Positions 1,426 to 58,487 of a stretch of 64,000 nucleotides of DNA are shown in pieces. Under the pieces are notes generated by a model. The model searched no databases, was not told where the DNA came from, and saw only the letters and a program-made list of their open reading frames with translations. Position 1 is the stretch's first letter. Every line of letters starts with the position of its first letter. Made by a program: the position numbers and the translations under genes. Source of the DNA: Spinacia oleracea (Eukaryota > Streptophyta > Magnoliopsida > Caryophyllales > Amaranthaceae); NCBI RefSeq assembly GCF_020520425.1, contig NC_079487.1, positions 127,308,385 through 127,372,384 on the forward strand, given 5' to 3'.

Positions 1426-1858
1426 ATAATAATAATATGAAAAGCTAAAAAAACTTGTATTTAAAACTACGGATTTTTCATGAAATACCCCTCAATTTTC
1501 ACGAAATTCACCAAATGCCCCTCAACTTTCAGAAATTCACCAAATGCCCCTCACCTTTAATATAATACCCAAACTACCCTTACTAATGACGCGCCGTTAG
1601 TCCGCCGTTAGTCTGCCGTTAGCCTACTTTTCTAATTCACCAAATGCCCCTACAATGTAACTTATTTCACCAAATACCCCTATTTTAAAATATAATTCAC
1701 CAAATGCCCAAATGTAAAAATTACCTTTTTAAAGCCCAACGGCTAGTTTTTGGAATTGAAAAATAGCCGTAGCTTATTGTTTTAGTATAAATAACCCTGT
1801 TCTGAGTGTTTATTTAGTCACCAAATTGTTTTGTTGTAGTTTCATCTCATTTTGTGTC

Positions 1859-2032
1859 ATGAGTTATCATTCAAAATCATCATCCACACATAATGAGTCC
1901 ACATATGTTAGAGTCCCAAATAAAATCTGTTATCGTGGGAGAAAATTTGTCATTCGTAGCTCCGATACAACACTCATTCCACAAAGGGTATACTACAAGT
2001 GTGATCCAAGCAACAATGGCGAATATGCTTAA
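1859..2032 (+). pseudogene. Short GRF-zinc-finger-like reading frame inside the MULE
   Basis: An ATG at 1859 opens a 57-residue frame: a Ser-rich start, then KICYRGRKFVIRSSDTTL and IPQRVYYKC. The order C-x2-G, a basic/aromatic run, a Thr/Pro segment and RxxYxxC resembles the GRF zinc finger, which usually reads CxCG...NPGRxFxxC. Here the second Cys of CxCG is replaced by Arg, and the last Cys and aromatic block are lost because the frame stops at 2032. The frame stays open past the first left-TIR-proximal kilobase and has no introns that I can see. Small GRF proteins of this kind are common passengers of plant Mutator-like elements (family knowledge). It is probably a decayed copy and could be expressed only as a short peptide. 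Confidence 0.45.
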
Positions 2033-2312
2033 ATATGATGTTTTTGATCAATACTACATATTGTTTCAGTATATCTGTCACTATATGAAGTTATTTTTGA
2101 ATGGTGAATATGATCATTATGATGTTTTTGAATGGTGAATATGCTTAATCTAGTTTGATAAATGATGTTTTTTTGTGTGTTGAATATGCTTAATCTGTTG
2201 CTGATATTTTTAGTACACTTTATTTCTGACACATCTGAAAATATTAGTAGCAGAAATGCTAGATTGATTACAATTTCACGAGGAAGCAGTTTAGTTCCCA
2301 AATATGGAGTAT

Positions 2313-2930
2313 TTAACAAGAGAAATACGCAACAAGGCAACACAAGTAAGCATCACGAGTAGCAGCTTCAATTTGTTGTAAAGACAACATAGTAGCACCC
2401 CAACTTCCTAGAGGTGCTGCAGGACCTTTAAGCACGTACAAAAACAATTCTTTACCCGGTGTAAATAGATTCGTCAAATATTGCAATCCAAATATTTTGA
2501 ACTTTTCATTGGTCTGTTTTTTATCCTGTTTAACAGTTACAACCAATTCACGCAAATCAAAAGCATTCCTGCATTGAATCCCATAATCTCTGTTCAACGC
2601 TTTAAGAAAGTTGTTCATTTTAACAGCAACAAAGGTAAGCTCTTGTCTTTGGAAGAACTAAGCCAGTGAACAAATAGGTTTATTAATCCGCAACAACTGG
2701 ATAATCAAGCAATTGTCGAAGAAAAACAGCTTCACTATGGCAACTTTTTCAGCAAGTTGGTGTTTGGTGTCATCTTGACAGTAGTGTCTTTCGATGTCTA
2801 GTCCTATTATGGACATGTGGTTGTCGCTAGAGCTACGGATTTTTGACATCAACTTCCCCAAACTATGATTAAGCTCAGTTATGGTGTAAACTAATGTTGT
2901 ATTCACATCTAATAATAAAAAGACTCTCAC
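2313..2930 (-). pseudogene. Werner-type 3'-5' exonuclease domain remnant
   Basis: On the minus strand one frame runs from about 2930 to 2313, broken by a single TAG at 2658-2660. Before the stop it holds IIGLDIERHY, which keeps the DxE of exonuclease motif I of the DEDDy family, then KVAIVKLFFF and NCLIIQLLRI, the strand after it. Past the stop the frame continues with QELTFVAVKM, DYGIQCRNAFDLREL (motif II with its Asp), and LSLQQIEAATRDAY (motif III). The Tyr of the Y-x3-D signature appears as Ala. This order and spacing match plant WRN-exonuclease-like proteins. The stop and the lost Tyr make activity unlikely. It lies opposite the GRF-like frame and both are enclosed by the MULE inverted repeats, so it looks like a captured or long-carried gene fragment. 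Confidence 0.7.
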
Positions 2931-3958
2931 TTGTCTTTAAAAAAATGGAGAGAGAGAACCCAACCCCAACCAAACCCCAACCCCAACCAATGGACAATTG
3001 TTAGCCGGAGAAATCACAGAAACGCCACCAATAAATTAGCACGGAGAACCTGCTTCATCAATTTCCTCCCCCATAACACCAGCCGACAAGGACTGTTCCT
3101 TCTTTTCGGCCGACATACACATGCCCAAAAACTAGCCGTTGGGCTTTAAAAATGTAATTTTTACATTTGGGCATTTGGTGAATTATATTTTAAAATAGGG
3201 GTATTTGGTGAAATAAGTTACATTGTAGGGGCATTTGGTGAATTAGAAAAGTAGGCTAACGGCGGACTAACGGCGTGTCATTAGTAAGGATAGTTTGGGT
3301 ATTATATTAAAGGTGAGGGGCATTTGGTGAATTTCTGAAAGTTGAGGGGCATTTGGTGAATTTCGTGAAAATTGAGGGGTATTTCATGAAAAATCCGTTA
3401 AAACTAATTGGTAAATTCGAATTGCTCTCCGGTTCGGATTTTGTTCGAGTTGATTTAAATTTTACAGTTATTTTCGATTCGGGTTATTTCGGTTTCAGGT
3501 GAAGATCGGTTCGGGTCGTTCGGTTCAGGTCGTTCGGGTATCGGGTCATTTCAGGTCAAATCACTTCGGGTACGGGTCAGTTTCGCCAGGTCTAGTGGTG
3601 ACTGGGTTAATTAAAGGTATTCATAAAAATAGGACTTTTCAATGGCTACACAAAATTGGTAGCCATAGTAATTGATATAAACCCGGGCCCTTGAATTTTA
3701 TAGACCTAATCTTGTCCGTTAGATTTGTTGACCAAAATATTAAGGGAATTCAGTTATTTTAATTTCTACTAAACTGAAAAATCCCGCATTAGTTTTTTTT
3801 TTTTTAATGAAGGTTGCAAAGTGAAATTTGGTGACCGCATGATTCAATTGAAAGAAACTACCAGCTGTGAATTTCGTGGGAATCAACTGTCATTTTTAAA
3901 GGTCAAATTAATCACTCTTCTTTCTAAATCCATGAAGTATTCATGAGTCATGGCATAT

Positions 3959-4123
3959 TGTCAAATATTATTCGAAGGTGTAGTTCTTATCATTGATAAA
4001 CAATGTATTTATAATACATATGAGACCAATTCCTACGCAAATTATAATACTAGGCCTAAGTCTAACAGAATAACAATTCTATGTATTAGAATCCCTCTAG
4101 CATTCTAATTATATATCGTAACA
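3959..4123 (-). repeat. 3' LTR of the copia element
   Basis: 165 bp, starting TGTCAAATATTATTCG on the plus strand and ending ATATCGTAACA. I see no difference from the 5' LTR at 8770-8934. Confidence 0.95.
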
Positions 4124-4134
4124 TCCCCCCTCAA
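4124..4134 (-). other. Polypurine tract of the copia element
   Basis: On the minus strand TTGAGGGGGGA abuts the 3' LTR, the expected place and composition for the primer of plus-strand DNA synthesis. It also overlaps the last codon and stop region of the gag-pol frame. Confidence 0.8.
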
Positions 4135-7100
4135 GGTGGAGCATGAAGGTTTCGAATGCCCATCTTGCCAAGAAAAAATTCAAACTGTGCTTTCCCTAAC
4201 GCCTTTGTAAAAATATCTGCTAACTGCACCTTGGTAGATACGTACGACGGGCAAATAATTCCTTCCTTAATTGCATCTCGTACAAAATGACAGTCTGCCT
4301 CAATATGTTTTGTCCTCTCATGAAATACCGGATTTTCTGCAATGTGAAGTGCAGACTGACTATCACAAAACACATTCATGCCCTGCTTGTGTTCCACACC
4401 TAGATCTATGAGTAGTTGTCTCAACCACTTTAATTCACACGTGAGGGCGGCCATTGAACGGTACTCCGCCTCTGCGGACGAACGAGACACCGTATGTTGT
4501 TTTTTCGTCTTCCATGACACAGGAGAAAGACCAAGTAATACGAACCACCCTGTTACTGAACGACGCGTTATCGGACAACTAGCCCAATCTGAGTCACACC
4601 ATCCCTCTAGTTGTAAGGCACTATCGGAACGTAAAAGAATGCCTTGTCCCGGACATTTTTTCAAGTATCGTACTACTCTCAAAGCTGCTTCCCAATGCTC
4701 TTCCTTTGGTGCTTGCATAAACTGTGATAAAATATGCACTGAATAAGCCAAGTCTGGTCTGGTGACCGCCAAGTAAATCAGACGTCCTATGAGGCGCCTA
4801 TATTTTTCTCCATCAACGAGATCTTTGCCCTTGACAAGTGCTAGTTTGTGATTCTGCTCCATCGGAAAATCTGCAGGCTTTGCACCTAATAGTCCTGTTT
4901 CAGAAATAATGTCTAGAGTATATTTCCTCTGACAGACATAAAATCCACTCTTATTGCGTGCAACTTCCAGGCCTAGGAAATATTTAAGATGGCCTAGATC
5001 CTTCATCTTAAAGCATTGACTTAAGTAGGCTTTGAAACTATTCAGTGCAAACACGTTGTTTCCTGCAATAATCATATCATCCACATATACTAGCACACTT
5101 AACTGCAAGTCTTTCTTAGAGAGGGTGAATAATGAGTAATCTGAATACGATTGTTTGAATCCGTACTGCTTCAGGGCAGTTGATAATTTCTCAAACCAAC
5201 ATCGGGGAGCCTGTTTCAAGCCATACAATGATTTTTTCATCCTGCAAACCATGTCAGTATTATCTTTTTGAAAACCGGGGGGAATTTTCATATAAATTTC
5301 CTCTTGTAAGTCACCGTGGAGAAAAGCATTATGCACATCCATCTTATGTACCTCCCAATTTTTCACTGCTGCAACAGCTAAAAAAGTTCGAACTGTTGTC
5401 ATTTTAGCAACTGGAGCAAATGTTTCAGTATAATCGGTACCTTCTATTTGATGATTGCCTAAGCAGACCAATCGAGCCTTATTACGGATCAAGTTTCCAT
5501 CCTCGTCTCTTTTTTCCGTATACACCCACTTACTTCCGAGTGCTTTCTTTCCGGAGGGTAATTTTTGTAGTACCCATGTTCCTTGCCCTTCGAGTGCTTC
5601 GATTTCTGCGGCCATAGCCTCTCTCCAAGCCTCATGTTTCATGGCCTCTTTAAATGTTTTTGGGGCTTTATTGTCTGTAATTGCTGCAATATAATTTCTA
5701 TGTTTTGCAGAAAACCGCTCATATTTAACAGAATATGTTATAGGATAAGGAGCACCTGAAGAAGATGATGTCGAGGGTGAACTTGCCGGTGGACTATTAG
5801 TTTTCCGTATAGTGTGTAACACGTGGTCCCGTAATTTAAACGAGGGATACTTCTGTCTTTTTCCTCTACCGAACTCCTCTTCATTGTCCTTACCCACTCC
5901 CTCAACGAATCTGTCACTCTCCTGTTCCAGACCTGTGTTGTTGTTCTGTCTCGCAGAATGATCTGCTGCTGTCTGGCTCGCTGTTTCAGCAGGTGTGTGC
6001 AGCGCCTCGGAGCCTCGACACAGCGCCTCTGCAGCGCCTTGTTCCTGGGCGTCCTGCAGAGTATTATTACTGGGCTGCTGCGCCTCAAGCCTATGAGGCA
6101 GCGCCTCACCTGTACCCTCGTCTGTACTCACCAAGTCTGCACCCAAGTCCAGTAGTGATGCACTCGTCCTACTGCTATGCTGCCTGCTAGACCTGCTGCC
6201 AGTTCCCAGCACTTCATCATCACTGTCATAATTAATCGTAGGCAACTCCATCTCATTTTCTCTAACATTCTGCATTAAATTCTCAGAGTATGGGAAAATC
6301 TTTTCATGGAACCTAACATCACGGGAAGCGAAAAATTCCCGAGTTTCCAAGTCAAACAATTGCCAACCTTTTTTCCCAAATGGATAGCCAACAAGAATAC
6401 ACCGTCTACTTCTAGAGTCAAATTTGTCCCCTTTACTTCGTTGATTGTGAGCATAACAAAGACATCCGAAAACCCGAATTAACTCATACAATGGTACTTG
6501 TCCAAATAGCATTTCATACGGACTTTTATTTTCAAGCAACGGAGTAGGCGTCCTATTAATCAAATAACATGCCGACAAAATACACTCCCCCCAAAATTTC
6601 TTAGGTAGTTTTGCTTGAAATCGTAAGGCACGAGCTACATTTAAAAGATGTTGATGTTTCCGTTCTACCCTACCATTTTGTTGCGGAGTTCCAACACATG
6701 AAGATTCGAACAAAATACCATTCTTAAAAAAATAACGTTGCAGACTATTAAATTCCGTTCCATTGTCACTTCGTATTACTTTAATATGTTGATTAAATTG
6801 ACGCTTACTCATTTCAACGAAACTCATAAACATTTCTTCAACTTCAGTTTTATCACGAATTAAGTAAATCCAAACTGCTCTAGAAAAATCATCCACAACA
6901 GTCAAAAAATATTTAGCCCCACACGACGAACGTGTCTTATAGGGACCCCACAAATCTAAGTGAACTAATTCAAACATTCTACTAGCTTTATTATAACTAA
7001 CAGGAAAGCTACTACGAGTATGTTTTGCACGAGGACACACATCACATACTTTATTATTAGTTCTAGCCATACTTTGAACCGGAGGAAGAAGCTTCGTAAT

Positions 7101-8681
7101 CCTTTCCGACGGATGCCCCATTCGTTGATGCCACAGCTCGACTACACACTCTGCCCCAACTGCCCGTACCTCAACTAACGGAATTCCACGGAAAAGAAAT
7201 AGTCCATCTGCTCGTTCACCCAGGCCAATCACCTTCCTCGTCGACCGGTCCTGTATAACACATAATTTGTTAGTAAATTGAGCAGAACAATTTGATTCCT
7301 CATTTAACTGCATAACAGAAATTAAATTGCAATTTAATCTAGGCACAAATAACACATTATGAAGCATAAGTCCTCCTTCTAATTCAACCGAACCCGCTTG
7401 ATTAGTATTCGTATATTGTCCATCAGGAAGTCCAATAGGGAAATTCGGTATGGTCTGGACGTTCTTTAATAGCGAAAGATCATATGTAACATGATTTGAC
7501 GCTCCCGTATCTACTATCCATTCACAATTTTTCTTACCCTTTAATTTTGTTTTCGAGGTTAGAATATCCAGTATTTGCTGAACCTGTTGGTCTGTGACCC
7601 CTACTAAACCCTCTGTAATTCCAGCTTTTGTTGCTGCACCTGGGTTTCCAGAGTGACCTGGATTTGTCACTTTGTTTGCTCGAACAGCAGTTCCTGCGCC
7701 TGCGCTTATCTCCTTGTTGCTGCCGCCAGAACCTCTACCACCACGTCCAGCGCGGCCACCCCGACTGCCAGACCGCCCTGAGCTCCGACCACCGCGGCGG
7801 TTGTGATCCCACCATTCTGGAAAACCATGTAATTGATAGCACGAATCGTCATCATGACCCGCACGATTACAATGATTACAAAATCTGTTGTCCACATTAT
7901 CATCAAACCGCGTTTTACCACGCGAATCAACCTTAAAGGCCATGACAGCACCTGTACCTTCCTCTTTGCGGAGACGCTCCGTATTTGTGACGCTGTTGTA
8001 AGCCTCGTCGATGTTTGGTAAAGGGGTCTGGGCAAGTAATTGAGCACGGATAGCCTCATACGGTTTGTCAAGACCAATAAGAAAGTGATGTAAGTAATCC
8101 TCTTCTCTTATATCTGCTATCTGTCCGGCAATATTGCATCTGCACGCACCACAGGAGCACTTCGGCACCCTTGCAAACGAGACTAACTCGTTCCATAACA
8201 TTGATAGTCTGCCATAGTATTCGGAGATGCTCTCGTCGTGTGTTTGTTTACAATCTGCAAGTTTCATCTTTAATTGACAGACTCTCGTACCACTGACGAC
8301 ACAAAATCGCTTCTTTAGATGCATCCACAAAACCCCTGCATCATCGTAGTCTCCCACAGTTGTTCGCAATGACTCTTCCAAGGTGTGTTTTATCCAAGAA
8401 ACCAACATAGAATGTACCGCGATCCAATCCGCAAGTCGTTCTGGATCATCTGTTGGCTCTAAGATCGTTCCGTCAACAAATCCAAACTTTCGTTTTGAAA
8501 TCAATGCCCGACGCACGGACGTCGACCACTCTTCGTAATTCTTTGCACCTCTCAGTTTAATGGGGGTGATGATATTGCCCGGGCTTTCACTCGAACCTAG
8601 ATAATATGCCTTGGCAAGGATTTCCTCCTTCGAAGATTTCACCTCCTTCGAAGGCTTAATAGGTTCCTCGTCGTCGCTCAT
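4131..8681 (-). CDS. Copia gag-pol polyprotein
   Basis: A single 1516-residue frame with no stop or frameshift, starting at an ATG 88 bp inside the 5' LTR edge. Domains in order: a UBN2-type gag region (about 35-240) with NYEEWSTSVRRAL; a CCHC zinc knuckle CNHCNRAGHDDDSC (268-281); a Gly/Arg-rich linker; an aspartic protease with DTGA (391-394); a pre-integrase HHCC zinc finger (about 517-553); an integrase core with its Asp at about 576 and SDN at about 638-640, then VERKH; reverse transcriptase with MDVHNAFLHGDL and YVDD (1199-1202); and RNase H from about 1360 with CDSDWA and a late KHIEADCHFVRD block. All catalytic motifs are present. It should package and copy the element's RNA in cytoplasmic particles and integrate the cDNA in the nucleus. 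The order protease-integrase-RT-RNase H defines copia. Confidence 0.95.
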   Translation of the reverse strand: MSDDEEPIKPSKEVKSSKEEILAKAYYLGSSESPGNIITPIKLRGAKNYEEWSTSVRRALISKRKFGFVDGTILEPTDDPERLADWIAVHSMLVSWIKHTLEESLRTTVGDYDDAGVLWMHLKKRFCVVSGTRVCQLKMKLADCKQTHDESISEYYGRLSMLWNELVSFARVPKCSCGACRCNIAGQIADIREEDYLHHFLIGLDKPYEAIRAQLLAQTPLPNIDEAYNSVTNTERLRKEEGTGAVMAFKVDSRGKTRFDDNVDNRFCNHCNRAGHDDDSCYQLHGFPEWWDHNRRGGRSSGRSGSRGGRAGRGGRGSGGSNKEISAGAGTAVRANKVTNPGHSGNPGAATKAGITEGLVGVTDQQVQQILDILTSKTKLKGKKNCEWIVDTGASNHVTYDLSLLKNVQTIPNFPIGLPDGQYTNTNQAGSVELEGGLMLHNVLFVPRLNCNLISVMQLNEESNCSAQFTNKLCVIQDRSTRKVIGLGERADGLFLFRGIPLVEVRAVGAECVVELWHQRMGHPSERITKLLPPVQSMARTNNKVCDVCPRAKHTRSSFPVSYNKASRMFELVHLDLWGPYKTRSSCGAKYFLTVVDDFSRAVWIYLIRDKTEVEEMFMSFVEMSKRQFNQHIKVIRSDNGTEFNSLQRYFFKNGILFESSCVGTPQQNGRVERKHQHLLNVARALRFQAKLPKKFWGECILSACYLINRTPTPLLENKSPYEMLFGQVPLYELIRVFGCLCYAHNQRSKGDKFDSRSRRCILVGYPFGKKGWQLFDLETREFFASRDVRFHEKIFPYSENLMQNVRENEMELPTINYDSDDEVLGTGSRSSRQHSSRTSASLLDLGADLVSTDEGTGEALPHRLEAQQPSNNTLQDAQEQGAAEALCRGSEALHTPAETASQTAADHSARQNNNTGLEQESDRFVEGVGKDNEEEFGRGKRQKYPSFKLRDHVLHTIRKTNSPPASSPSTSSSSGAPYPITYSVKYERFSAKHRNYIAAITDNKAPKTFKEAMKHEAWREAMAAEIEALEGQGTWVLQKLPSGKKALGSKWVYTEKRDEDGNLIRNKARLVCLGNHQIEGTDYTETFAPVAKMTTVRTFLAVAAVKNWEVHKMDVHNAFLHGDLQEEIYMKIPPGFQKDNTDMVCRMKKSLYGLKQAPRCWFEKLSTALKQYGFKQSYSDYSLFTLSKKDLQLSVLVYVDDMIIAGNNVFALNSFKAYLSQCFKMKDLGHLKYFLGLEVARNKSGFYVCQRKYTLDIISETGLLGAKPADFPMEQNHKLALVKGKDLVDGEKYRRLIGRLIYLAVTRPDLAYSVHILSQFMQAPKEEHWEAALRVVRYLKKCPGQGILLRSDSALQLEGWCDSDWASCPITRRSVTGWFVLLGLSPVSWKTKKQHTVSRSSAEAEYRSMAALTCELKWLRQLLIDLGVEHKQGMNVFCDSQSALHIAENPVFHERTKHIEADCHFVRDAIKEGIICPSYVSTKVQLADIFTKALGKAQFEFFLGKMGIRNLHAPP

Positions 8682-8751
8682 GATGGCTGGCTATCTCACG
8701 TTTAGTATGTTTTGTATTAATGCGGAAGAAAAAAAAACTTGGTTATCGTAA

Positions 8752-8769
8752 CCTAAGCTCTTGATACCA
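8752..8769 (-). other. Primer binding site (initiator Met-tRNA)
   Basis: Immediately inside the 5' LTR the minus strand reads TGGTATCAAGAGCTTAGG. The start matches the complement of the 3' end of plant initiator Met-tRNA (TGGTATCAGAGC) with one extra A, a variant seen in many plant copia families. Confidence 0.85.
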
Positions 8770-8934
8770 TGTCAAATATTATTCGAAGGTGTAGTTCTTA
8801 TCATTGATAAACAATGTATTTATAATACATATGAGACCAATTCCTACGCAAATTATAATACTAGGCCTAAGTCTAACAGAATAACAATTCTATGTATTAG
8901 AATCCCTCTAGCATTCTAATTATATATCGTAACA
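8770..8934 (-). repeat. 5' LTR of the copia element
   Basis: 165 bp, the same sequence as 3959-4123, followed by the target copy CATAT at 8935-8939. It should hold the element's promoter, but I cannot point to a certain TATA box. Confidence 0.95.
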
Positions 8935-13106: not shown

Positions 13107-13352
13107 TTTCGTTTTAGTCCGTTTCATAATTTTCTTCTTATTTTATTTTTGGACATAAACCTTTATTATCTTACTCCTCTTACCCCATAACACTTATCAT
13201 TTTTAACTCACTTTCTCTTATTTAATTTTCATTTTTTCTTACATTCACACTCCCTCACTTACCTTATCCATATTTAATTACATTCACCGAATAATTTACC
13301 ATTTTTCCATTTTTATATTAATAACCTTCATTATAAAACGAAATCAGTAGTA
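13107..13352. mobile_element. Degenerate Stowaway-like MITE at the Kunitz promoter
   Basis: TTAGTCCGTTTCATAATTTT on the left faces TTATAAAACGAAATCAGTA on the right, again worn inverted Stowaway-type ends. It lies directly upstream of the TATA box of the Kunitz gene, so it may contribute promoter sequence. It is too diverged to be certain. Confidence 0.35.
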
Positions 13353-13375
13353 GTTTTGACAAATTATAAAGTTTC

Positions 13376-13382
13376 TATAAAA
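13376..13382 (+). promoter_or_regulatory. Likely TATA box of the first Kunitz gene
   Basis: TATAAAA lies 61 bp before the ATG at 13437, leaving a leader of about 30 bases, normal for a short plant 5' UTR. A second TATAAA-like site (ATTATAAAG, about 13363) is an alternative. Confidence 0.45.
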
Positions 13383-13436
13383 CCATCTCTCCTCTCTCAA
13401 CTCTTTCACCAATCTCCAAGTCAAACAACACCAAAA

Positions 13437-14042
13437 ATGAATCCCATCTTCCCCATAGCAATCACTTTCCTTGTGTTTCTTTCTGCTCTTCCTTCACTCA
13501 ACGCCGCTGTTCTCGACAGCGACGGTGAGATAGTACGCAACAGCGGTGGATCATATTACATAATCCCAAAAGGAAGTAGTAATGGCCTCAGTCTTAAACA
13601 AAGATCCGGGAGCCCATCATGCCCACTCTATATAACCCGGAAATCCAACTCTCCAGGTACACCTGTAACCATCTTTTCCCCTTTTAGATCACTTTTTATT
13701 CCAGTTTCTGCCAAGGTTAAAATCATATTCCAAGCTAATGTTACGAGCTGCACGGACTCGCTTGAGTGGCGCGTGACCTCTGACTTGTCTACCGGGAAGC
13801 CGTATGTGGTTGCCGGTGGTGGTGGTCCGTCGGTTTTCAGTTATTTCTTCAGCATTGAGCAGGCTGGCAATGGTGAAATGGACAATGTTTATAAGATAAA
13901 CTATTGTCCACTAAACGGGGAAGATGATAAAAACTGTGGTGATGTAGGTTTTCTTCGGAGGAGTGGATTATTGGGTATTAATAATGAGAAGCCACTTTTG
14001 CTCCAGTTTAAGAACGCTAATACTGGAATGTCTGAGATGTAA
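13437..14042 (+). CDS. Kunitz-type (STI family) proteinase inhibitor
   Basis: An intronless gene for 201 residues. The open frame reaches back to a TTG at 13356, but the first ATG (13437) begins a proper signal peptide (MNPIFPIAITFLVFLSALPS, cleavage probably after NAA), so I take that start. The mature protein opens with AVLDSDGEIVRNSGGSYYII, the STI family signature. Four Cys (in SPSCPLYI, TSCTD, NYCPL and KNCGDVG) can form the two standard disulfides. The reactive loop aligns as SPFRSLF, placing Arg at P1, as in trypsin-inhibiting members. Length fits the family. Expected role: secreted or vacuolar inhibitor of serine proteases, in storage or insect defence. It converges with a second family member 1.1 kb downstream. 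The exact target protease cannot be read from the sequence. Confidence 0.93.
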   Translation: MNPIFPIAITFLVFLSALPSLNAAVLDSDGEIVRNSGGSYYIIPKGSSNGLSLKQRSGSPSCPLYITRKSNSPGTPVTIFSPFRSLFIPVSAKVKIIFQANVTSCTDSLEWRVTSDLSTGKPYVVAGGGGPSVFSYFFSIEQAGNGEMDNVYKINYCPLNGEDDKNCGDVGFLRRSGLLGINNEKPLLLQFKNANTGMSEM

Positions 14043-15163: not shown

Positions 15164-15826
15164 TCACGACGATAATGAACGACCCTTTGCTTTCTTGAAC
15201 ATGACATGAAGAGGACGATCAGTAAGAGCCAGCAACCTAGTTCCATCTTCTTGAACAAAAACACCCACATCTCCACACATCACCATACAAAACTCACAAA
15301 CATTTGGACAAAACACGATCTTATAATGATTACCAGATTCATTACCCCTTCTCCCAATAGTCCTAACCTTCTCTATGTTAAACCAACTACTCACTGTTTC
15401 TTCCCCAGGATTTCCAATGGCTCCCCCAGTTGCAACGTACTTCCTCCCTGTGGTGTGATCAACGGTTAACTGCCACCCGACGGATTGCAAGCAGTTGCTG
15501 ATGGCATTGAAGAGGATGTTGAGGTCAGAGGAGAGAGTAACCAGGCGTTGTCTGGGGTTGTTGGGAAGAAACCATACAGGAAGGCCAGGGTACATTTCCT
15601 GGACAACATACAGAGGACAAAACGAGGTTGTGTTTTTGGATAACATTGTTAGACCACCACCTTGGCCGTGAGCCACTGGAACGATATAATACCTTGATCT
15701 GGCTCGGAGTGGGCGGCCATTGGTGTCAAGGACAGCATTGCCTGCAGCACCAGCATTGCCACAGGGAAGTAGAAAAAAGAGAAGAAAGAAGGTGGTTGCT
15801 GAGATGATTGAAAAACCAGATATCAT
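15164..15826 (-). CDS. Kunitz-type (STI family) proteinase inhibitor, divergent paralogue
   Basis: An intronless frame of 220 residues on the minus strand. It begins with a signal peptide (MISGFSIISATTFFLLFFLL) and then NAVLDTNGRPLRARSRYYIV, the STI signature. The family Cys are present in SFCPLYV, NCLQS, VFCPNV and MCGDVG. The loop between the last pair holds two extra Cys (VCEFCMVMC), so disulfide pairing there may differ from the standard. The reactive loop aligns as NNPRQRL, keeping Arg at or near P1. It shares only the family framework with the convergent gene at 13437, so the pair is probably an old tandem duplication with later divergence or inversion. Likely secreted or vacuolar and defensive. 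I found no firm TATA box for it. Confidence 0.92.
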   Translation of the reverse strand: MISGFSIISATTFFLLFFLLPCGNAGAAGNAVLDTNGRPLRARSRYYIVPVAHGQGGGLTMLSKNTTSFCPLYVVQEMYPGLPVWFLPNNPRQRLVTLSSDLNILFNAISNCLQSVGWQLTVDHTTGRKYVATGGAIGNPGEETVSSWFNIEKVRTIGRRGNESGNHYKIVFCPNVCEFCMVMCGDVGVFVQEDGTRLLALTDRPLHVMFKKAKGRSLSS

Positions 15827-16421
15827 ATTTGTTAGTTTTATGAAAAAGTCGACTAATCAAGGGAGGTGGTGGAAGATAAGATAAGTTGCATTTAATCAAG
15901 ATTGGACAGCTAATAGTTGAAGCATTAAAGATATGAAAAGTAGTGTATGAGTTGTACAGAAAGACATTAACAAATCCAGAGAGTAATACGGCACTATCCA
16001 GGACAATGGTCTTGGTACTCTATATAAACTGCGAATTATAAAGGTTTTGCCAATAGTCACTTTTTCCATTTTCACTCGTAGCAGATTAGCACTCAGCTGG
16101 AAGCATAGCACCGCTGTATAAGTCAACAGTCTGTAATGGAACCAAAATATATCACCATGAAAACATCTTGCCTGCTTAAAGAAGATGAATAAAAGGGAAA
16201 CAATAATCTAATATTGCACAAACCATTCATCTTAGATGTATTTGACATAAAATCAAGAGAACAAACATAGAAAACTAGAGTTGTCGACAAAGTTCTATTA
16301 GAAACTACGCTCAAATTATCCAACTGTAAGATACAAATCCAATTCTCAAGACACCTCACATTCCCAAGATTTGCTTCACTGAAGCACCAAAATTTACCAT
16401 TCAAATAAATGGCGTCTATTT
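15827..16421. other. Spacer, Kunitz promoter side and RPL34 3' side
   Basis: Contains the upstream region of the minus-strand Kunitz gene and the 3' UTR and terminator region of RPL34. No gene seen. Confidence 0.6.
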
Positions 16422-18946: not shown

Positions 18947-20263
18947 CGGATTTTTCATGAAATGCCCCTGAGATTTGCCTTAATGCACCAAATACCCTTA
19001 AACTTTCCAGAATGCATCAAATACCCTTGAGGTTTTAAAAAATAACACAAAATGCCCTTAATGAGCATTTTCCGTCAATTCCGTTAAGTCCCCGTTAGTA
19101 TGAATTTACTTGTTTGCCCTTACTCACCATTTTCTCTACTAATCCTAATATTAATACTTAATTAAAATAATTAAACCCCTAAAAAACTAATTAACTATTA
19201 TCTAAAAAAATTAAGCCCCTAAAATAATCTAATTAGCTATTAAAAAAACAAAAAAAATTGACCCCAAAATGTGAATCTGCTATTCTGCTTGCTTGCTTCT
19301 TCATTTGTCTTCATCTTCACCTTTGTAATTTTGATACAACATCTTCATCATCATCATCTTCTTTCTCATCTCAAACCACCATGGAAGCAATGACCATCAC
19401 CATCCTATCCCTAATTAACCGTCTCTCCTCCAATTCGCAAAACCCGCCCCTTTTTCTTTCTCACTCTCGCCCAATTTCTCTCTCATGTTCTTCACCATCG
19501 CCATCATCATCACAAAACCCAACCATCAAAACCAAACAAAATCAGCCATTATATATAAGCACCCGGAAAAATTATTCACGAAATCTTCAACAAAACATAC
19601 CCCATCTCCAACCTACACGGGCGACGACGGTGGTGGAGCCTGCAATGTGATTGGGGGAGACTACCATGGCTGCTCACAATGAACTCTTCCTCTTATTTTC
19701 TTCCAAACCCAAAAAATCAACCCAAAATATCGACCCAAAAAATCACCCAAAATTGAGAAATATTATCTACAAAAATCGAAGAGAAACACCCCTTAATTTG
19801 CAGATGATTCACAACAAAAAAAACACTCATAATTAGCAGAAAATTCGCAACCAAAAAACCCTTAATTCGCAACCATGGAGGAGGAGAGAGAAAACCCATT
19901 TTTTTTTAATTTTTTGTTCGAATTTAAGGATCCATGGAAAGAAGGGGAAGGAAGCAGAATAAAGGAAAAGAAAAAAAAAAAAGAAAAAAAAAATAAGGAA
20001 AAAAAATTTGATTTGCAGACTCCCTGAGATTTTGGGAAAGAGAAGGAGAAAGAACAAAGGAACATGAAAGAGAAAAGAGAAAGAAAAACAGAAAAATTTT
20101 AAAAATTAATGTTAACGGAGACTTAAATGAATTGACGGAAAATGCTCATTAAGGGTACTTTGTGTTATTTTTTAAAACCTCAAGGGTATTTGGTGCATTC
20201 TGGAAAGTTTAGGGGTATTTGGTGCATTAACGCAAACCTCAGGGGCATTTCATGAAAAATCCG
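18947..20263. mobile_element. Second Mutator-like element, 1.3 kb
   Basis: The element starts CGGATTTTTCATGAAATG and ends with the reverse complement. The inverted repeats are about 155 bp and clearly alignable despite several mismatches. The 9-bp sequence A8T flanks both ends (18938-18946 and 20264-20272). It shares its outermost 16 bp and the recurring CACCAAATACCC motif with the element at 1470-3397 but differs further in. The interior contains a C-rich, Ser-biased open stretch (19291-19650) followed by A-rich sequence; I recognise no protein. It may carry a captured host fragment. Because it sits 300 bp upstream of RPL34, it may lie in that gene's promoter. Confidence 0.85.
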
Positions 20264-21732: not shown

Positions 21733-23203
21733 ATCCATGCCAAATATTTGTAGCATAATACGTTTTTTGAATGTAAACCTCGGGCAAAGGACTCATGGAT
21801 ATGGAAAAAAAATCCTCCAAATTAGACCCCTTCTTCTCAAGGGTCTCAGATGGAAAATAGACTCGGGATCTAATGTCCTTTTCTGGCTCGATAATTGGTG
21901 TTTTTCTACCAATTAGTCACCATTTGAACTTAGATATTTCTGTAATCCAAAATCTAGATCTTACAGTTGATCATTTTATCACAAATGATCGAACTTGGGA
22001 TATTCCTGCACTCTCTTTGATTCTTCCACCTTCTGTTGTGCAAACTATCAAAGGAATTCCTATACCAGTAAGTGATTTACCAGATGAACTCTAGTAATGG
22101 TGCTTTTACAGTTAAATCTGCTACATGGCTAGCACATAATTTGCATTCCCCTACCAAGTGGGAATTTTCTTGGATATGGAAGCTAGATATTGCTCCAAAG
22201 TTAAAAATTTTTGTTTGGCAATTATTGCATAACGGCCTCCCTACCCGAGATAATTTATCATATCGACATATAAACATTGATAATAGTTGCCCTTTATGTG
22301 CTACTCAAAGAGAAACGCAAGACCATTTATTTTTTCATTGTCCGTTTGTTAGAGAATATTGGGATGCAAACGCCTCAATTCGATGGCTTGGCACTAATCT
22401 TCGATCTTCTTCTGTTCTTACTCTTTTCCGTGAACTCCGTAACAATGTTACCTTACCGGCTAAAAAGATCATAACTTCTATTTGGAGTATTTGGAAAACA
22501 CGTAATGCTCACATTTTCAGACAATCTCCTGTCTCATCAGTGCAAATATACAGTAGAGCTTTCAAGATGTTTACAGAATGGAATATGCGTACACATCTTG
22601 ATTCATTGGATGTTAACGTTAATAATAATGCTCTTTCAAAGTATCCACGTACCATGCAAGTTGCTTGGACACCTCCGACCCCTGGTATTGTGAAAATTAA
22701 CTTTGATGGGTCAGTTCGTAACAACTCTGGAACAACTGGTGTAGTAATCAGAGACCACCTAGGAGATAATATTGTTAGTCGAACCTACAATCTTGGAAAC
22801 TCCTCTCCACTTCTTGCTGAAGCAACAACTCTTCGTAATAGTCCTCTTTTAGCCATCGAAAAAAATATACATGTTTTCATTGAGGGTGATAATTTATTAA
22901 TCATAAACATTTTGCAGGGAAAAACTCAATGCCCGTGGAAGATACAGGTATTAATGAATGATATCAAGCACCTTCTGAATAATTTTGATAGTATTTCTTC
23001 TCGCCACATTTATAGGGAAGCCAATCGCGCAGCAGATTATGTTGCTGCTTTAGGTCATCGCATACAAACGCACCAAGAAATTGACCCATACATAGATAGT
23101 AAATTTTCTTGTTATATATCTTTAGATAAGTTAGGATATAGTTTTGAGAGATTACTATCCTAACTTTCGTTTATCTTTCCTTTAAAAAAAATAAAATAAA
23201 AAA
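21733..23203 (+). mobile_element. 5'-truncated LINE with target duplication
   Basis: The 15-bp sequence ATTGATTCTCTTACT flanks it on both sides (21718-21732 and 23204-23218). The 3' end is an A-rich tail (TTTAAAAAAAATAAAATAAA). The body contains only the end of ORF2, so this is a typical incomplete reverse-transcription product. The LINE fragment at 167-875 belongs to the same broad class. Confidence 0.88.
21750..23163 (+). pseudogene. LINE ORF2 C-terminus (zinc-binding and RNase H domains)
   Basis: The coding trace starts in one frame with KGLRWKIDSGSNVLFWLDNW (to 21916), a block typical just after the reverse transcriptase of plant LINEs. It shifts frame near 21890 and again near 22090, then stays open from about 22072 to the TAA at 23161. 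The last part (about 360 residues) contains the zf-RVT region, with KWEFSWIWKLDIAPKLKIFV and CPLCATQRETQDHLFFHCPF, then an RVT_3 RNase H with VKINFDGSVRNNSGTTGVVI, IEGDNLLIIN and HIYREANRAADYVAALGH. The upstream endonuclease and polymerase are missing. Two frameshifts and truncation make it a dead copy, though the RNase H part is well preserved. Confidence 0.88.
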
Positions 23204-35514: not shown

Positions 35515-35569
35515 GCTTCTCCAGTGCTTTGAGATTGGTGATTTCCACTATTGACATAAGTACATAACA

Positions 35570-38500
35570 ATGGCGGAAACCGACCCAAGCAAGATTATGT
35601 GCAGCAATTGTGATTACCTAGGTCTCTATGTGGACGACGACGGTCGCTACTATTGCACCAACTGCAACTCCCAAGCCGTAGACATCATCGACCAAGCCAA
35701 CGCTGACGAAGACTTCCTCGACAAAGGCAATGGTGCCTCCATCTACAACGCCGCCAACAAACGCTCTGCTCCTCTCTACTCCGCCGACCCCGATCGTGAT
35801 TATCTGGGACCCACTGAACCTGCTGATTTCGGGAAGACCCCAAAAGGAGTTTACTACAAGGACGAAGACTACTACAATACAATTCGTATGAGGCATATTT
35901 TGGGTGTTCAGTTGATGATTCAATTTCAGTGTGAAGCTCTTGTGGAAAAATGTGGGGTTACTCCTTTGATTTGTGGAATTGCTGCTTCGATTTGGCTGCG
36001 CTTTGTTGCTACTACTAGGGTGTTTGATGATGATTGGGCTGATAAAACTGTCTTGGACTCCGAAACAGGTGATTTTTGTTGCTGATTGCGGATTTCCATT
36101 TTTTTTCCCCTTCTTGTTTTGCCAATTTGAGTGTGGTCGCATTGGGTATCTTGTGGATTACAGTATATGCTGTTGATTTGTGCCAGTTCAGTTTCGCCCT
36201 CAGTTTTCAATTTCCGGTTTATGATTTTTCAAGGTATGGTTGCATTTGTTATCTTGTGGATGTATGTGTTATCAATTTGTCCGGTTCATTATGACTGTCA
36301 GTTTTTGGTTTTATGATGATATTTAAAGCAACGAAGTATTCTTGTATGATATAACTATATAAGTCACTAAATGGTACACCAAACTTAATTTGTTCTTACA
36401 GTAATTGATTGATGCTTTCAGTGAAGATGAATGTCTACAACTACCCAATTTGTGAATATATACGTAAACTGAATTGTAGAATTCAAGTTGGGACCAATGT
36501 GTTAGCGTCTTGAGTTGTTTACACACATTTTTGATTTTTGAATTTTGTCCGTATGCTTTAAGTGTTTGTATATGAAGGCCTGTATGCTCACATATAAGAG
36601 GCCTTGTTATTGTTTTCAGGGGAAAAGAGATACCAAGTAGGAAAACACTGCATAAACGAGCCTCGAAATATGCATAACGAGCGTATGGTGATGATATGGT
36701 CTAGATCTTTGAAAAAGACGATACCATTGTCGTGTTCTTTAGCTGTTTCGTATTTGGCCTGTCATATTGCTAAAGAACCGGTTCTTCCGACTGACATTAT
36801 TAAGTGGTCTATCGAAGGAAAGCTTCCTTATTTTGGTGCTTTCCCTAAGATTGCAGAATCCATCATAGAGATTGAGAAATACGATCACCATGTTTCAGTT
36901 ATTTGTCCATTGAAAACAAGTACTATGTTCAGGCCTATACAACTTCCTTTACATAAGTTGGAGTCAATGGCAGCATCTATAGCTCAGTCTGTAGGCCTGA
37001 ATTTGCCTCCAGTCAACTTTTACCGAATAGCTCACCGTTATCTAAAGCAGTTATCTCTTCCGGTGGAAAAAATTCTTCCATATGCTTGCCGCATACAAGA
37101 GTGGTTGATGCCTCCTGATTTATGGTTGTCTGCAAGCGAAGAAAAACTACCTTCTCGTGTTTGTGTAATGTCGATACTAGTTGTCGCAATTAGAATTCTA
37201 TATAATCTCAATGGTTTTGGCAAATGGGAATCAACTCTATCTGCTCCAACTGTCTTCTCTTCAAGGGATGACCAGACAGCAAGTTCTGGCAAGTCCAACG
37301 CAAATAAAGGGGCTGAAAAAGCTTCTAAAAATCTGGGTGGAGAATCTGGAGCAAATTTGTCGTCCGTTCATAAATTTGAGTTTGATAGCACAGAGCTTTT
37401 GCGCAATCTTGAAAGGAGATATGATGATTTGAGTGATAAATTTGGTAATTGTGGAGCACTTCTTTCAAAATGAAAAATTATTCACTGCAAAAAATACCCT
37501 AGCTTTCTACTTTCAAATATTAATGTTCATTTGGTTGTGGTCGCTGCTTTATTTCTTTCTAATTATCCTTTTCTTCTCTCCCAATTTGGCAGAATATTCC
37601 AAGGATTTACCAACCTATCTTCAATATTGCAAGGATGTCGTATTTGCTGGTGTAGAGCCATTGTACAAGGATCCTACTTTTATTGAAGAACTTTGGGATT
37701 TTTATGAGAAGAATCGAGAGGTAATGTACATTGATTTCAGATCATTAGCTGCATAACCTGGCAGCATAAAAGATATTTATCTGCACTGGCTACTCTTCAC
37801 AGATTTAGTTGTGTAAAAATTGCCAACCTGATTTTTGCCACCATGAAGTGATTGATGCTAGGACTTGAAACCTGTTACTCCGACACTTCAATATCTTCCC
37901 CAATTTCCATACCCTTCTCTTCCCCGGACCCAAGTACTCAACATCTCAAACAGATTAGATACTTGGGTGTGATCCTTAAAAGACAATAGGAAAACATGCA
38001 AAAGATAAGATATCTGCATTTGTGTCAGATACTTCTAAGAGTCTGATTTTTTTGAAGAGTCTGAGCAACCACTTCATCACTTCACACACTTGTAGCTTAG
38101 TTTTTGCAAAGAGACACTTTACAAGAAAGGCGCTGACCTATACAGATTATGTGACGAAGTGTGAGAGACAGTGGACCAAAACAAGCTGCCTAATCTGAAC
38201 CCATACCTTCAGTTCTTTTTCTTATTCCTTACTTGATTAGAAAAAAAGCTCAGTGTTTTAGGTAGAATGAATGCTAATTTGTCAATATTTTACTCCACCA
38301 CACCTTTTTTCTTATCACAATAGGGTGTGACCCAGATATTTAAGCTATAGTATAATTGAGGTACCCTATCAAGTAAGAAGGCGAGGCATAGCTGCATAGC
38401 ATGTAATAGTTGAAATATTTTAAAGTAGATGGTGGGCGTAGAGAGAGGGGAAGTTTTTGAGGTATGTGCCCAAAAGGGTATTTTTGGGGAATGAAATAGA

Positions 38501-57104: not shown

Positions 57105-58202
57105 TCATTGCGCTTTCGCTTCCTGGCCACCACCATTAGCAAAATTAAACTCCAGCGCTGAACCAAGAACTCCACCACAATTCATACCCACATTACTATT
57201 ATTAGTATTATTATTGTTGTTGTTACTGCTATTATTAGTATTTCCATGTTTTCCGTTACTACTGGTAGTGATACTAGTAGTTGCAGTACTGATACCAGTG
57301 TTGTCATTCCGTTGCGACGAAGCTAATGCCAAAGCCGCACCCGAAACGGTTGCGGAACCAGTAGCGGTTGCGGTTGCGGTAGGGATAACGGTTGCGGAAG
57401 CGGTGGCGATTGCGATTGCAGAAGGGGAAGCGGAGTGTTTGTTGTTGTGCATCCAGACTTTGAACACACATCTATCAACACCCACTTCTTTGCAAAAATC
57501 TTGTACTAATTTTTCTTCTCCTTTTTTCAGCCTCCATCCGATTTTCTCGGAAAATTCGTACATTTTCTCCTTTTGGTCTTGGCTGAATTTGGTCCTGAAT
57601 CTCTTCTTGCTTTGGAAACTCCCATTTTGCCCTCCGCTTCCGACTCCGTTGTTGCTGGTGTAGTACCCCATCACAATTCCTCCTCCGCCACTTCCGACGG
57701 TGGTTGGAGTCTGCATCATCTCGTGATCTGATGGTCCTGAGGGGCTTTGAGCATGGCCGCTTAAGGAGAGGAGGAGCTGTGAGGCTGATGGAGGAGAGTG
57801 AGCCCTACGCGCCGCCGAAGGTGGAATTAGGTGGTGGAGAGGAGCAGGGTCGTCAGGGTCACGGCGGTGAAAGTTACGGTGGCAGCCACAAGCGGCGCAC
57901 GTGAGTGAAGTGGGGTCCAACAGGTTAGCAGTGGGACCCGGCATGAACTCACAGCATCCGTCTAGCGCGTGTCCACCAATGCTCGCCGCGTGGTTCTTCA
58001 TGCACTCCTTGTACGACACGTGCTGCTCCAGCTGACTGTTGTTGCTGCTGCTGTTGTTGTTGTGGTGGTGGTGGTGGAGGTGGATCCTTTTAGCCGGCGG
58101 AAGATGCGGTGGAGTGTCGGTATCAGAATCAGGGGTTCTAGGAAATGCGGTGTTTGTTGCGGCGGAGGTGGCGGTGGGGCCACTAATAAAGTCCATGGCC
58201 AT
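57105..58202 (-). CDS. Zinc-finger homeodomain (ZHD) transcription factor
   Basis: An intronless gene of 365 residues, as is usual for plant ZF-HD genes. After a His/Asn/Ser-rich start, the ZF-HD dimerisation zinc finger spans about 62-117: VSYKECMKNHAASIGGHALD, CCEFMPG, then CAACGCHRNFHRRD. The homeodomain lies at about 199-257 (KKRFRTKFSQDQKEKMYEF, ending KVWMHNNKH, the Met being characteristic of this family). The C-terminal third is low-complexity: Ala/Thr alternation encoded by GCNACN-type tandem codons, then Ser/Thr- and Asn-runs. Family members bind ATTA-containing sites as homo- or heterodimers in the nucleus and act in floral development, leaf shape and stress responses. The start at 58202 is the first of two close ATGs (MAMDF). 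Which ZHD subclass it belongs to needs a tree. Confidence 0.96.
   Translation of the reverse strand: MAMDFISGPTATSAATNTAFPRTPDSDTDTPPHLPPAKRIHLHHHHHNNNSSSNNSQLEQHVSYKECMKNHAASIGGHALDGCCEFMPGPTANLLDPTSLTCAACGCHRNFHRRDPDDPAPLHHLIPPSAARRAHSPPSASQLLLSLSGHAQSPSGPSDHEMMQTPTTVGSGGGGIVMGYYTSNNGVGSGGQNGSFQSKKRFRTKFSQDQKEKMYEFSEKIGWRLKKGEEKLVQDFCKEVGVDRCVFKVWMHNNKHSASPSAIAIATASATVIPTATATATGSATVSGAALALASSQRNDNTGISTATTSITTSSNGKHGNTNNSSNNNNNNTNNSNVGMNCGGVLGSALEFNFANGGGQEAKAQ
57240..57430. repeat. Codon-level repeats in the ZHD 3' part
   Basis: GTTGCGGAAGCGGTTGCGGT-type units (encoding Ala-Thr alternation) and, nearer the stop, ATT-rich Asn/Ser codon runs. Such tracts often vary in length between alleles. 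Confidence 0.8.
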
Positions 58203-58487
58203 GGTGGTGGAAGGTGGTTGGTTTAAGGAGGCAAAAGAACAAACGGTGGGAGAAAAGGGGGGGAGAGAGAGAGGTTTTGTGGGTAATGTTGGGAGATTTT
58301 GTTAGAAAAGAAAGGTTTATGAAATAATAATAAGGGGTTGTTTGTTTGGTGGGGTTAGTTGTTGTTGAGAAGGGTAATAAATACTTATGTCTCAGACTCT
58401 ACTTAAAATAGGAGGGTATGTTTAAGTTTTTTTAGATTTATTTTTAAATTTTTAGGGCATGAAATTTTAAAGGGAGAGGTAATATGG

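Follow-up and report, generated by a model that had tools for sequence, protein, structure and literature searches.

We found that the element at positions 1470 to 3397 of the window, the 64,000-nucleotide stretch of Spinacia oleracea DNA analysed here, is a Pack-MULE, a well-described kind of element. Very probably, it is a non-autonomous one in which the stub of a resident GRF-type gene lies beside a filler from a host exonuclease-like gene, and an already broken copy was mobilised in trans to give a young multi-copy family. The tempting story of a paired cargo thereby gives way, most simply, to one capture, already broken, followed by a burst. A young multi-copy Pack-MULE can now be presented together with a host relative, a parent family and two fillers in one shell, and a tractable question is raised: what the GRF gene facing the transposase does for these elements.

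Structure of the element

The element is intact and 1928 bp long, and its features are collected in Table 1. A Mutator-like element with inverted repeats of about 280 bp and an exact 9-bp duplication had been predicted from the sequence, and each of these points was borne out: the terminal inverted repeats (TIRs) measured 284 and 273 bp and, apart from one 11-bp indel, differed at 3 of 273 aligned bases, the flanking copies of TTAAAACTA were exact, and TIRs and duplication length agree with a Mutator-like origin. No transposase was detected inside the element when its frames were listed and eleven stretches covering the larger ones were scanned against Pfam; Rfam gave no match at gathering scores and NCBIfam no relevant match. 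Long TIRs, a duplication of about 9 bp, ends related to those of a transposase-bearing MULE, host gene sequence and the absence of an internal transposase were thus all found, as in a Pack-MULE.

Table 1. Features of the element and its flanks, in window coordinates; shell limits are from blastn against L039, L043 and L047, three of the ten 1.37-kb variants
Feature	Position	Strand	Remark
Target-site duplication TTAAAACTA, left	1461..1469		exact 9-bp match with 3398-3406
Left TIR	1470..1753	+	TTCACCAAATGCCCCT-like units repeated ~30 bp apart
Left shell (TIR, TATA-like box, first 14 codons of GRF gene)	1470..1899	+	common to 1.37-kb variants
TATAAATA, likely TATA box of resident GRF gene	1786..1793	+	suggested by sequence reading
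Truncated resident GRF-type gene, 57 codons	1859..2032	+	DNA homology to longer relatives stops near 2017
Filler (host segment plus stretches 2018-2241 and 2909-3120)	2018..3120		blastn limits
Host-derived exonuclease-like segment	2242..2908	-	from codon ~11 through the stop and ~70 bp downstream
DNA_pol_A_exo1-type reading frame	2313..2936	-	PF01612, E 1.7e-5 read through
Codon at motif-II catalytic Asp position	2607..2609	-	Phe in window, Cys in other 27/28
In-frame TAG	2658..2660	-	common to 28/28 aligned full-length elements
Candidate GT-AG intron	2909-3049	-	sites kept in 28/28 aligned elements
Possible chimeric first exon	3050..3122	-	ATG just inside right TIR; in-frame join
Right shell	3121..3397	-	common to 1.37-kb variants
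Right TIR	3125..3397	-	arm 273 bp
Target-site duplication TTAAAACTA, right	3398..3406		exact copy of left

The exonuclease-like frame and its host relative

The minus-strand frame spans 207 codons, interrupted by a single in-frame TAG. Dinucleotide shuffles of the interior seldom gave a one-stop frame of that length (2 of 1000), while the longest stop-free stretch in it, 114 codons, was reached in 69 of 1000 and is not rare. When read through, the frame matched PF01612 (DNA_pol_A_exo1) at 25.2 bits (gathering score 23.6; E 1.7e-5), and by sequence both it and its host relative belong to this family. Searched separately against Pfam, the two pieces of the frame gave no exonuclease match, and a PDB search with the second piece alone returned nothing relevant. 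The claim that the element carries an exonuclease-family remnant therefore holds, and the remnant is host derived. The frame had further been described as about 200 residues with a single stop that keep exonuclease motifs I and II. Its length, its stop and motif I (D-x-E) agreed with this description, but motif II did not: the position of its Asp (D114 of RICE1) is occupied by Phe in the window and by Cys in all 27 remaining elements of the 28 aligned. Cys is also present there in the host relative L048 and its paralogs L049, L050 and L051, and the canonical-looking paralog L056 keeps Asp. In motif III, the alignment of the frame has Ala, not Tyr, and the frame does not hold the full set of four acidic residues and motif-III Tyr of a DEDDy/WRN-type 3'-5' exonuclease. 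Since the motif-II Asp is already missing in the host relative, the name DEDDy exonuclease had to be given up, and, because Cys stands at the D114 position in that relative and its paralogs, the loss of the canonical site in the host branch of the captured gene seems, by sequence, to predate the capture.

The best stop-free counterpart of the frame lies at C5:956964-957548, inside gene L048 (C5:956100-958500), whose 207-aa protein matches PF01612 at E 7.3e-7. Element positions 2242-2908 and L048 are identical in 591 of 674 DNA alignment columns (88%). The homology runs from codon ~11 to ~70 bp beyond the stop; elsewhere in the fetched stretch of 2401 bases, the element matches just an adjoining paralog, and the host source is thus not itself enclosed by the TIRs within that stretch. 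The exact start of the host homology at the assumed splice acceptor makes it less likely that the exonuclease was taken over whole, together with a promoter and intron of its own. Related exonuclease places occur nearby on C5 (764909-771674 and 953058-956584). The host genes L048 to L051 (C5:764909-957548) have open exonuclease-like frames in which Cys replaces the motif-II Asp, and the motif-III Asp is also missing in L049-L051; they possibly represent an expansion of pseudo-enzymes.

Comparison of the element majority sequence with L048 gave a dS of 0.24-0.25, a dN of 0.05 and a dN/dS of 0.21-0.22. At this dS, L048 must be a close paralog of the donor and not the exact source, so the donor search yielded a close relative but not the donor itself. 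The true donor may have been lost or may have escaped detection; alternatively, the frame could have spent a period inside an element. The low ratio between element and host shows that at least the host branches were under constraint, and early constraint inside an element may have added to it.

Copies in the genome and the burst

The source assembly comprises 894 Mb in 242 contigs. The left TIR gave 2413 candidates in it, of which 40 matches, all 98-100% identical, were scored; the 39 besides the window were fetched, and two (L036 and L044, with one arm in a 2.2-kb stretch) were left out. The inverted-repeat search called for by the original prediction thus yielded 38 two-armed elements among the scored matches. 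An exact 9-bp duplication flanks 34 of these 38, and the duplicated targets mostly differ from copy to copy. Twenty-eight, the window element included, are of a 1.93-kb kind and 10 of a 1.37-kb kind. Mean pairwise identity in the 1.93-kb family is 0.992 (n = 28) and the mean distance to the majority sequence is 0.43%, which we take, by usual plant rates, to mark a young family. A search of genome_contigs outside the source genome with the TIR-end pattern revealed no relatives; in viral_contigs, the TIR pattern had no match and a protein search gave 2 pattern matches, none of them confirmed. The target duplications in the window and in copies L009-L047 are A/T-only or nearly so, often with T first and A last. 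TTAAAACTA is duplicated in the window and in L047, TATATACTA in L015 and L038, and TATTTTTAA in L018 and L045.

All 28 aligned full-length elements carry both the GRF and the exonuclease segment, and they have in common the TAG, the ATG of the GRF frame, both terminal stops and the candidate splice sites. Frame shifts were seen in the GRF frame of L016 and L022 and in the exonuclease frame of L015. With the TAG present in 28 of 28, an open exonuclease reading frame was absent from the aligned copies, and for these the suggestion that other copies might keep the exonuclease intact failed. The unique changes in the exonuclease frame comprised 14 synonymous, 32 nonsynonymous and 2 stop-changing ones, compared with 11.6, 33.1 and 3.3 under a null drawn from the same mutation spectrum (P for at least 14 synonymous changes, 0.24). 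As the observed changes match the null, selection after the burst is not apparent. The proposed dN/dS test thus had a divided outcome, a low ratio against L048 and differences within the family that fit neutrality.

Genome-wide, the exonuclease frame was found at 89 places (96 of 96 candidates scored). In each of the best 45 of these 89, the match extends over 202 or more of the 207 residues and contains a TAG, whose position was confirmed in the aligned copies among them. In the 1.37-kb variants, the outer parts (about 430 bp at the left end and 277 bp at the right end) are common with the window element and the interior is unrelated, as established by blastn for three of the ten and, for the other seven, by length and shared words. 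The comparison of cargo among copies accordingly gave a mixed picture, with both segments in 28 elements but an unrelated filler in ten others. One shell with two unrelated fillers is what repeated filling of a single shell would give.

It is unlikely that the exonuclease was once a working gene of an older element, of which the burst family would be a dead derivative. The dN/dS values of the host relative against L052, L054, L055 or the majority (0.18-0.27) point toward such a past, as does L052, an older, rearranged copy with a sense codon at the TAG site. Among the element sequences themselves (majority, L052, L054 and L055), however, the ratio is higher, at 0.33-0.80 on few changes, constraint on the host branch alone accounts for the low values, and L052 carries a TAA of its own elsewhere. 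Slightly less likely again is a role for a predicted chimeric transcript, starting from the right TIR, as antisense or small RNA against the chromosome-5 exonuclease-like genes. An ATG just inside the TIR, a GT-AG intron and an in-frame join, with sites in 28 of 28 elements, would allow such a transcript, and the copies are many and about 88% identical to the host gene; yet conservation of the sites says little because the copies are so young, and the intron may be a chance feature, as host homology breaks off right at the presumed acceptor site.

The GRF frame is the start of a resident gene

The plus-strand frame encodes 57 aa, consisting of the first 53 codons of a resident gene followed by foreign codons and a stop, and alone it had no match in Pfam or the PDB. 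Compared with a 15-position GRF pattern drawn up after the frame had been seen, it fitted at 10; the highest score in 1500 shuffles was 8, and every other place in the window stayed below 7. This copy has Arg for the second Cys and is without the last zinc ligand, its sequence being foreign after codon 53.

When the frame (query P0001) was searched against the genome, 150 of 1387 candidate places were scored, 60 of them at 93% identity or more and 90 at 75-84%. Many of the latter 90 have longer open frames, such as L058 (137 aa), L057 (130 aa) and L061 (121 aa), whose proteins consist of a GRF-like start, a stretch that by eye resembles a charged coiled coil, and a hydrophobic tail. PF23549 (Zn_ribbon_GRF_2) matched the relatives at E values of 8.9e-4, 0.011 and 0.027, all below threshold, and for L057 and L061 it is outranked by other, equally weak Pfam families. 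The order CxC...CxxC is present in L057 and L061, and in L058 the second Cys is replaced by Tyr. The prediction of a GRF-type frame is in keeping with the pattern fit and with the sub-threshold PF23549 matches of the longer relatives. Between L057 and L058, the dN/dS of the GRF gene was 0.25 (130 codons, one pair); for the window stub it was 0.68 against L058 (11 changes) and 0.14 against L057.

On the strand facing the GRF gene, L061 encodes transposase domains, namely DBD_Tnp_Mut (PF03108, E 7.9e-12), MULE (PF10551, 1.1e-10) and SWIM (PF04434, 2.9e-8). A SWIM frame faces the GRF gene in L058 as well (E 2.7e-8), and the corresponding strand of L057+L059 has a sub-threshold zinc knuckle and nothing more. 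Furthermore, the left end of L061 is 85% identical to the right TIR of the window element over 273 bp. In a genome search for the SWIM frame, 150 of 861 candidate places were scored and the best 50 were used to count neighbours. Among these best 50, a SWIM frame lies within 4 kb of 40 of the 90 distant GRF places (chance, 0.04), in convergent orientation in 40 of 40, and of none of the 60 GRF places of the window family; the other 50 of the 90 distant places are without such a neighbour among the best 50. Since a longer GRF gene faces a Mutator transposase in the relatives, it is a resident of these elements and not cargo.

No complete autonomous parent was seen among L061, L058+L060 and L057+L059. 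The 4 kb covered at L061 contain no right TIR, and the transposase is split over three frames; in L058+L060 the frames are broken, 5.4 kb contain no right TIR, and two pieces are without a relevant Pfam match. At L061:2233-2380, TIR-like repeat units, perhaps intronic, separate one part of the transposase frame from another. The odds appear even that a large MULE family has a conserved GRF-type accessory gene facing its transposase, in the place of mudrB or VANC, with putative roles in aiding transposition or countering silencing, and that the window element is a parasite of this family, retaining its ends and just a stub of the gene.

A probable single capture amplified in a burst

Among the 150 GRF candidates scored of 1387 and all 96 exonuclease candidates, 59 of the 60 GRF places that are near-identical have an exonuclease place within 8 kb, and none of the 90 more distant ones does. 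Conversely, 15 of the 89 exonuclease places are without a scored GRF place nearby: nine resemble host genes (seven on C5, plus C4:6253860 and C1:25427537), and the rest are L016 and L022 with their shifted GRF frame, the rearranged L052 and three others. The original prediction had proposed that the element carries exonuclease and GRF finger as a pair and that this pair is a recurrent cargo. The first proposal gave way to a GRF frame that is a truncated resident gene, as seen in L057, L058 and L061, with a host counterpart for the exonuclease alone, and the second to the distribution just given. With the GRF gene resident and the exonuclease absent near the scored distant GRF places, the pairing is most simply explained as a single Pack-MULE capture amplified in a burst. 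That MULEs repeatedly carry both as functional cargo, to the benefit of transposition or of the host, is extremely improbable: the presence of both segments in all 28 elements and the low element-host dN/dS are outweighed by the empty neighbourhoods of the 90 scored distant GRF places, the stop common to all 28 copies with changes that fit neutrality, and the absent motif-II Asp. Literature searches of titles and abstract starts turned up no description of an exonuclease-GRF pairing, and narrow word searches no paper on a GRF gene in MULEs, an association that the original prediction had given as known.

Under the single-capture reading, the shell (TIRs, promoter region and the first third of the GRF-type gene) would stem from a MULE with a GRF gene and a MuDR/MULE transposase in facing orientation. 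A filler would have replaced the transposase and the remainder of the GRF gene, probably by gap filling, a model quoted in the accessible text of PMC8277862, and would have brought in most of a host exonuclease-like gene from or near the chromosome-5 cluster. The exonuclease frame would have gained its TAG before the spread, and the broken copy was presumably mobilised by a transposase acting in trans on its ends, giving the young multi-copy family.

Comparison with known systems

Pack-MULEs of plants are said to have been described by Jiang et al. in 2004. They are well described (PMC3418495, PMC6446971, PMC8277862), and, as far as the accessible text of these sources goes, the window element resembles them in its Mutator-type TIRs, 9-bp duplications, host gene segment and lack of any transposase found inside, and also in its many copies with mostly different duplications. 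It differs from them in that its shell retains the start of a resident GRF gene and in that the same shell was found with two unrelated fillers.

In maize, MuDR has a transposase gene and a second gene, and the two are convergent. According to the accessible parts of the sources, additional genes in full-size MULEs are exemplified by Arabidopsis VANDAL21 (PMC5735166), and VANDAL21/Hiun has VANA, VANB and VANC (PMC5735166, PMC6446971). The relatives described here are, to the extent of that text, like MuDR and VANDAL21/Hiun in having a transposase plus extra gene(s), whereas their second gene encodes a GRF-type protein with a coiled-coil-like stretch and a hydrophobic tail. This protein resembles the GRF families PF06839 and PF23549 in the CxC...CxxC order and GRF-like spacing of L057 and L061; unlike members of those families, L057 and L061 have neither as their best Pfam match, all matches being weak.

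The exoribonucleases RICE1 and RICE2 (At3g11770 and At5g06450) were compared with the host relative, which matches the structures 1vk0 (E 1.5e-4) and 5v5f (E 0.0031). In the accessible text of PMC5451212, RICE1 has D52, Y54, D114 and E187 as active residues and carries Ala where WRN has Tyr212; our alignment reads Ala at this position in the host relative too. Unlike RICE and WRN-type enzymes, motif I is D-x-E, not D-x-Y, and the motif-II Asp is replaced by Cys or Phe.

Other features of the window

A second Mutator-like element occupies positions 18947-20263, with an exact duplication of AAAAAAAAT and arms of about 162 bp at 93% identity. Its terminal 17 bases are identical to those of the 1470-3397 element, the TIRs of the two are about 75% alike, and it contains a 137-codon open frame (19237-19650) with a transit-peptide-like start and no Pfam match; it is probably another Pack-MULE. 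At 3959-8934 lies what appears by eye to be a Copia-type retrotransposon on the minus strand, with a 1519-aa open frame (4131-8690) and two 165-bp terminal repeats that are identical, which indicates a very recent insertion. LINE-type remnants with RVT_3 were located at 84-443 and 22072-23163, with zf-RVT at 22072. Likely host genes are found at 13278-14042 (a Kunitz inhibitor by Pfam, to which 15164-15856 looks similar), at 35555-36085 (a weak zinc-ribbon match, below threshold) and at 57105-58301 (a ZF-HD protein).
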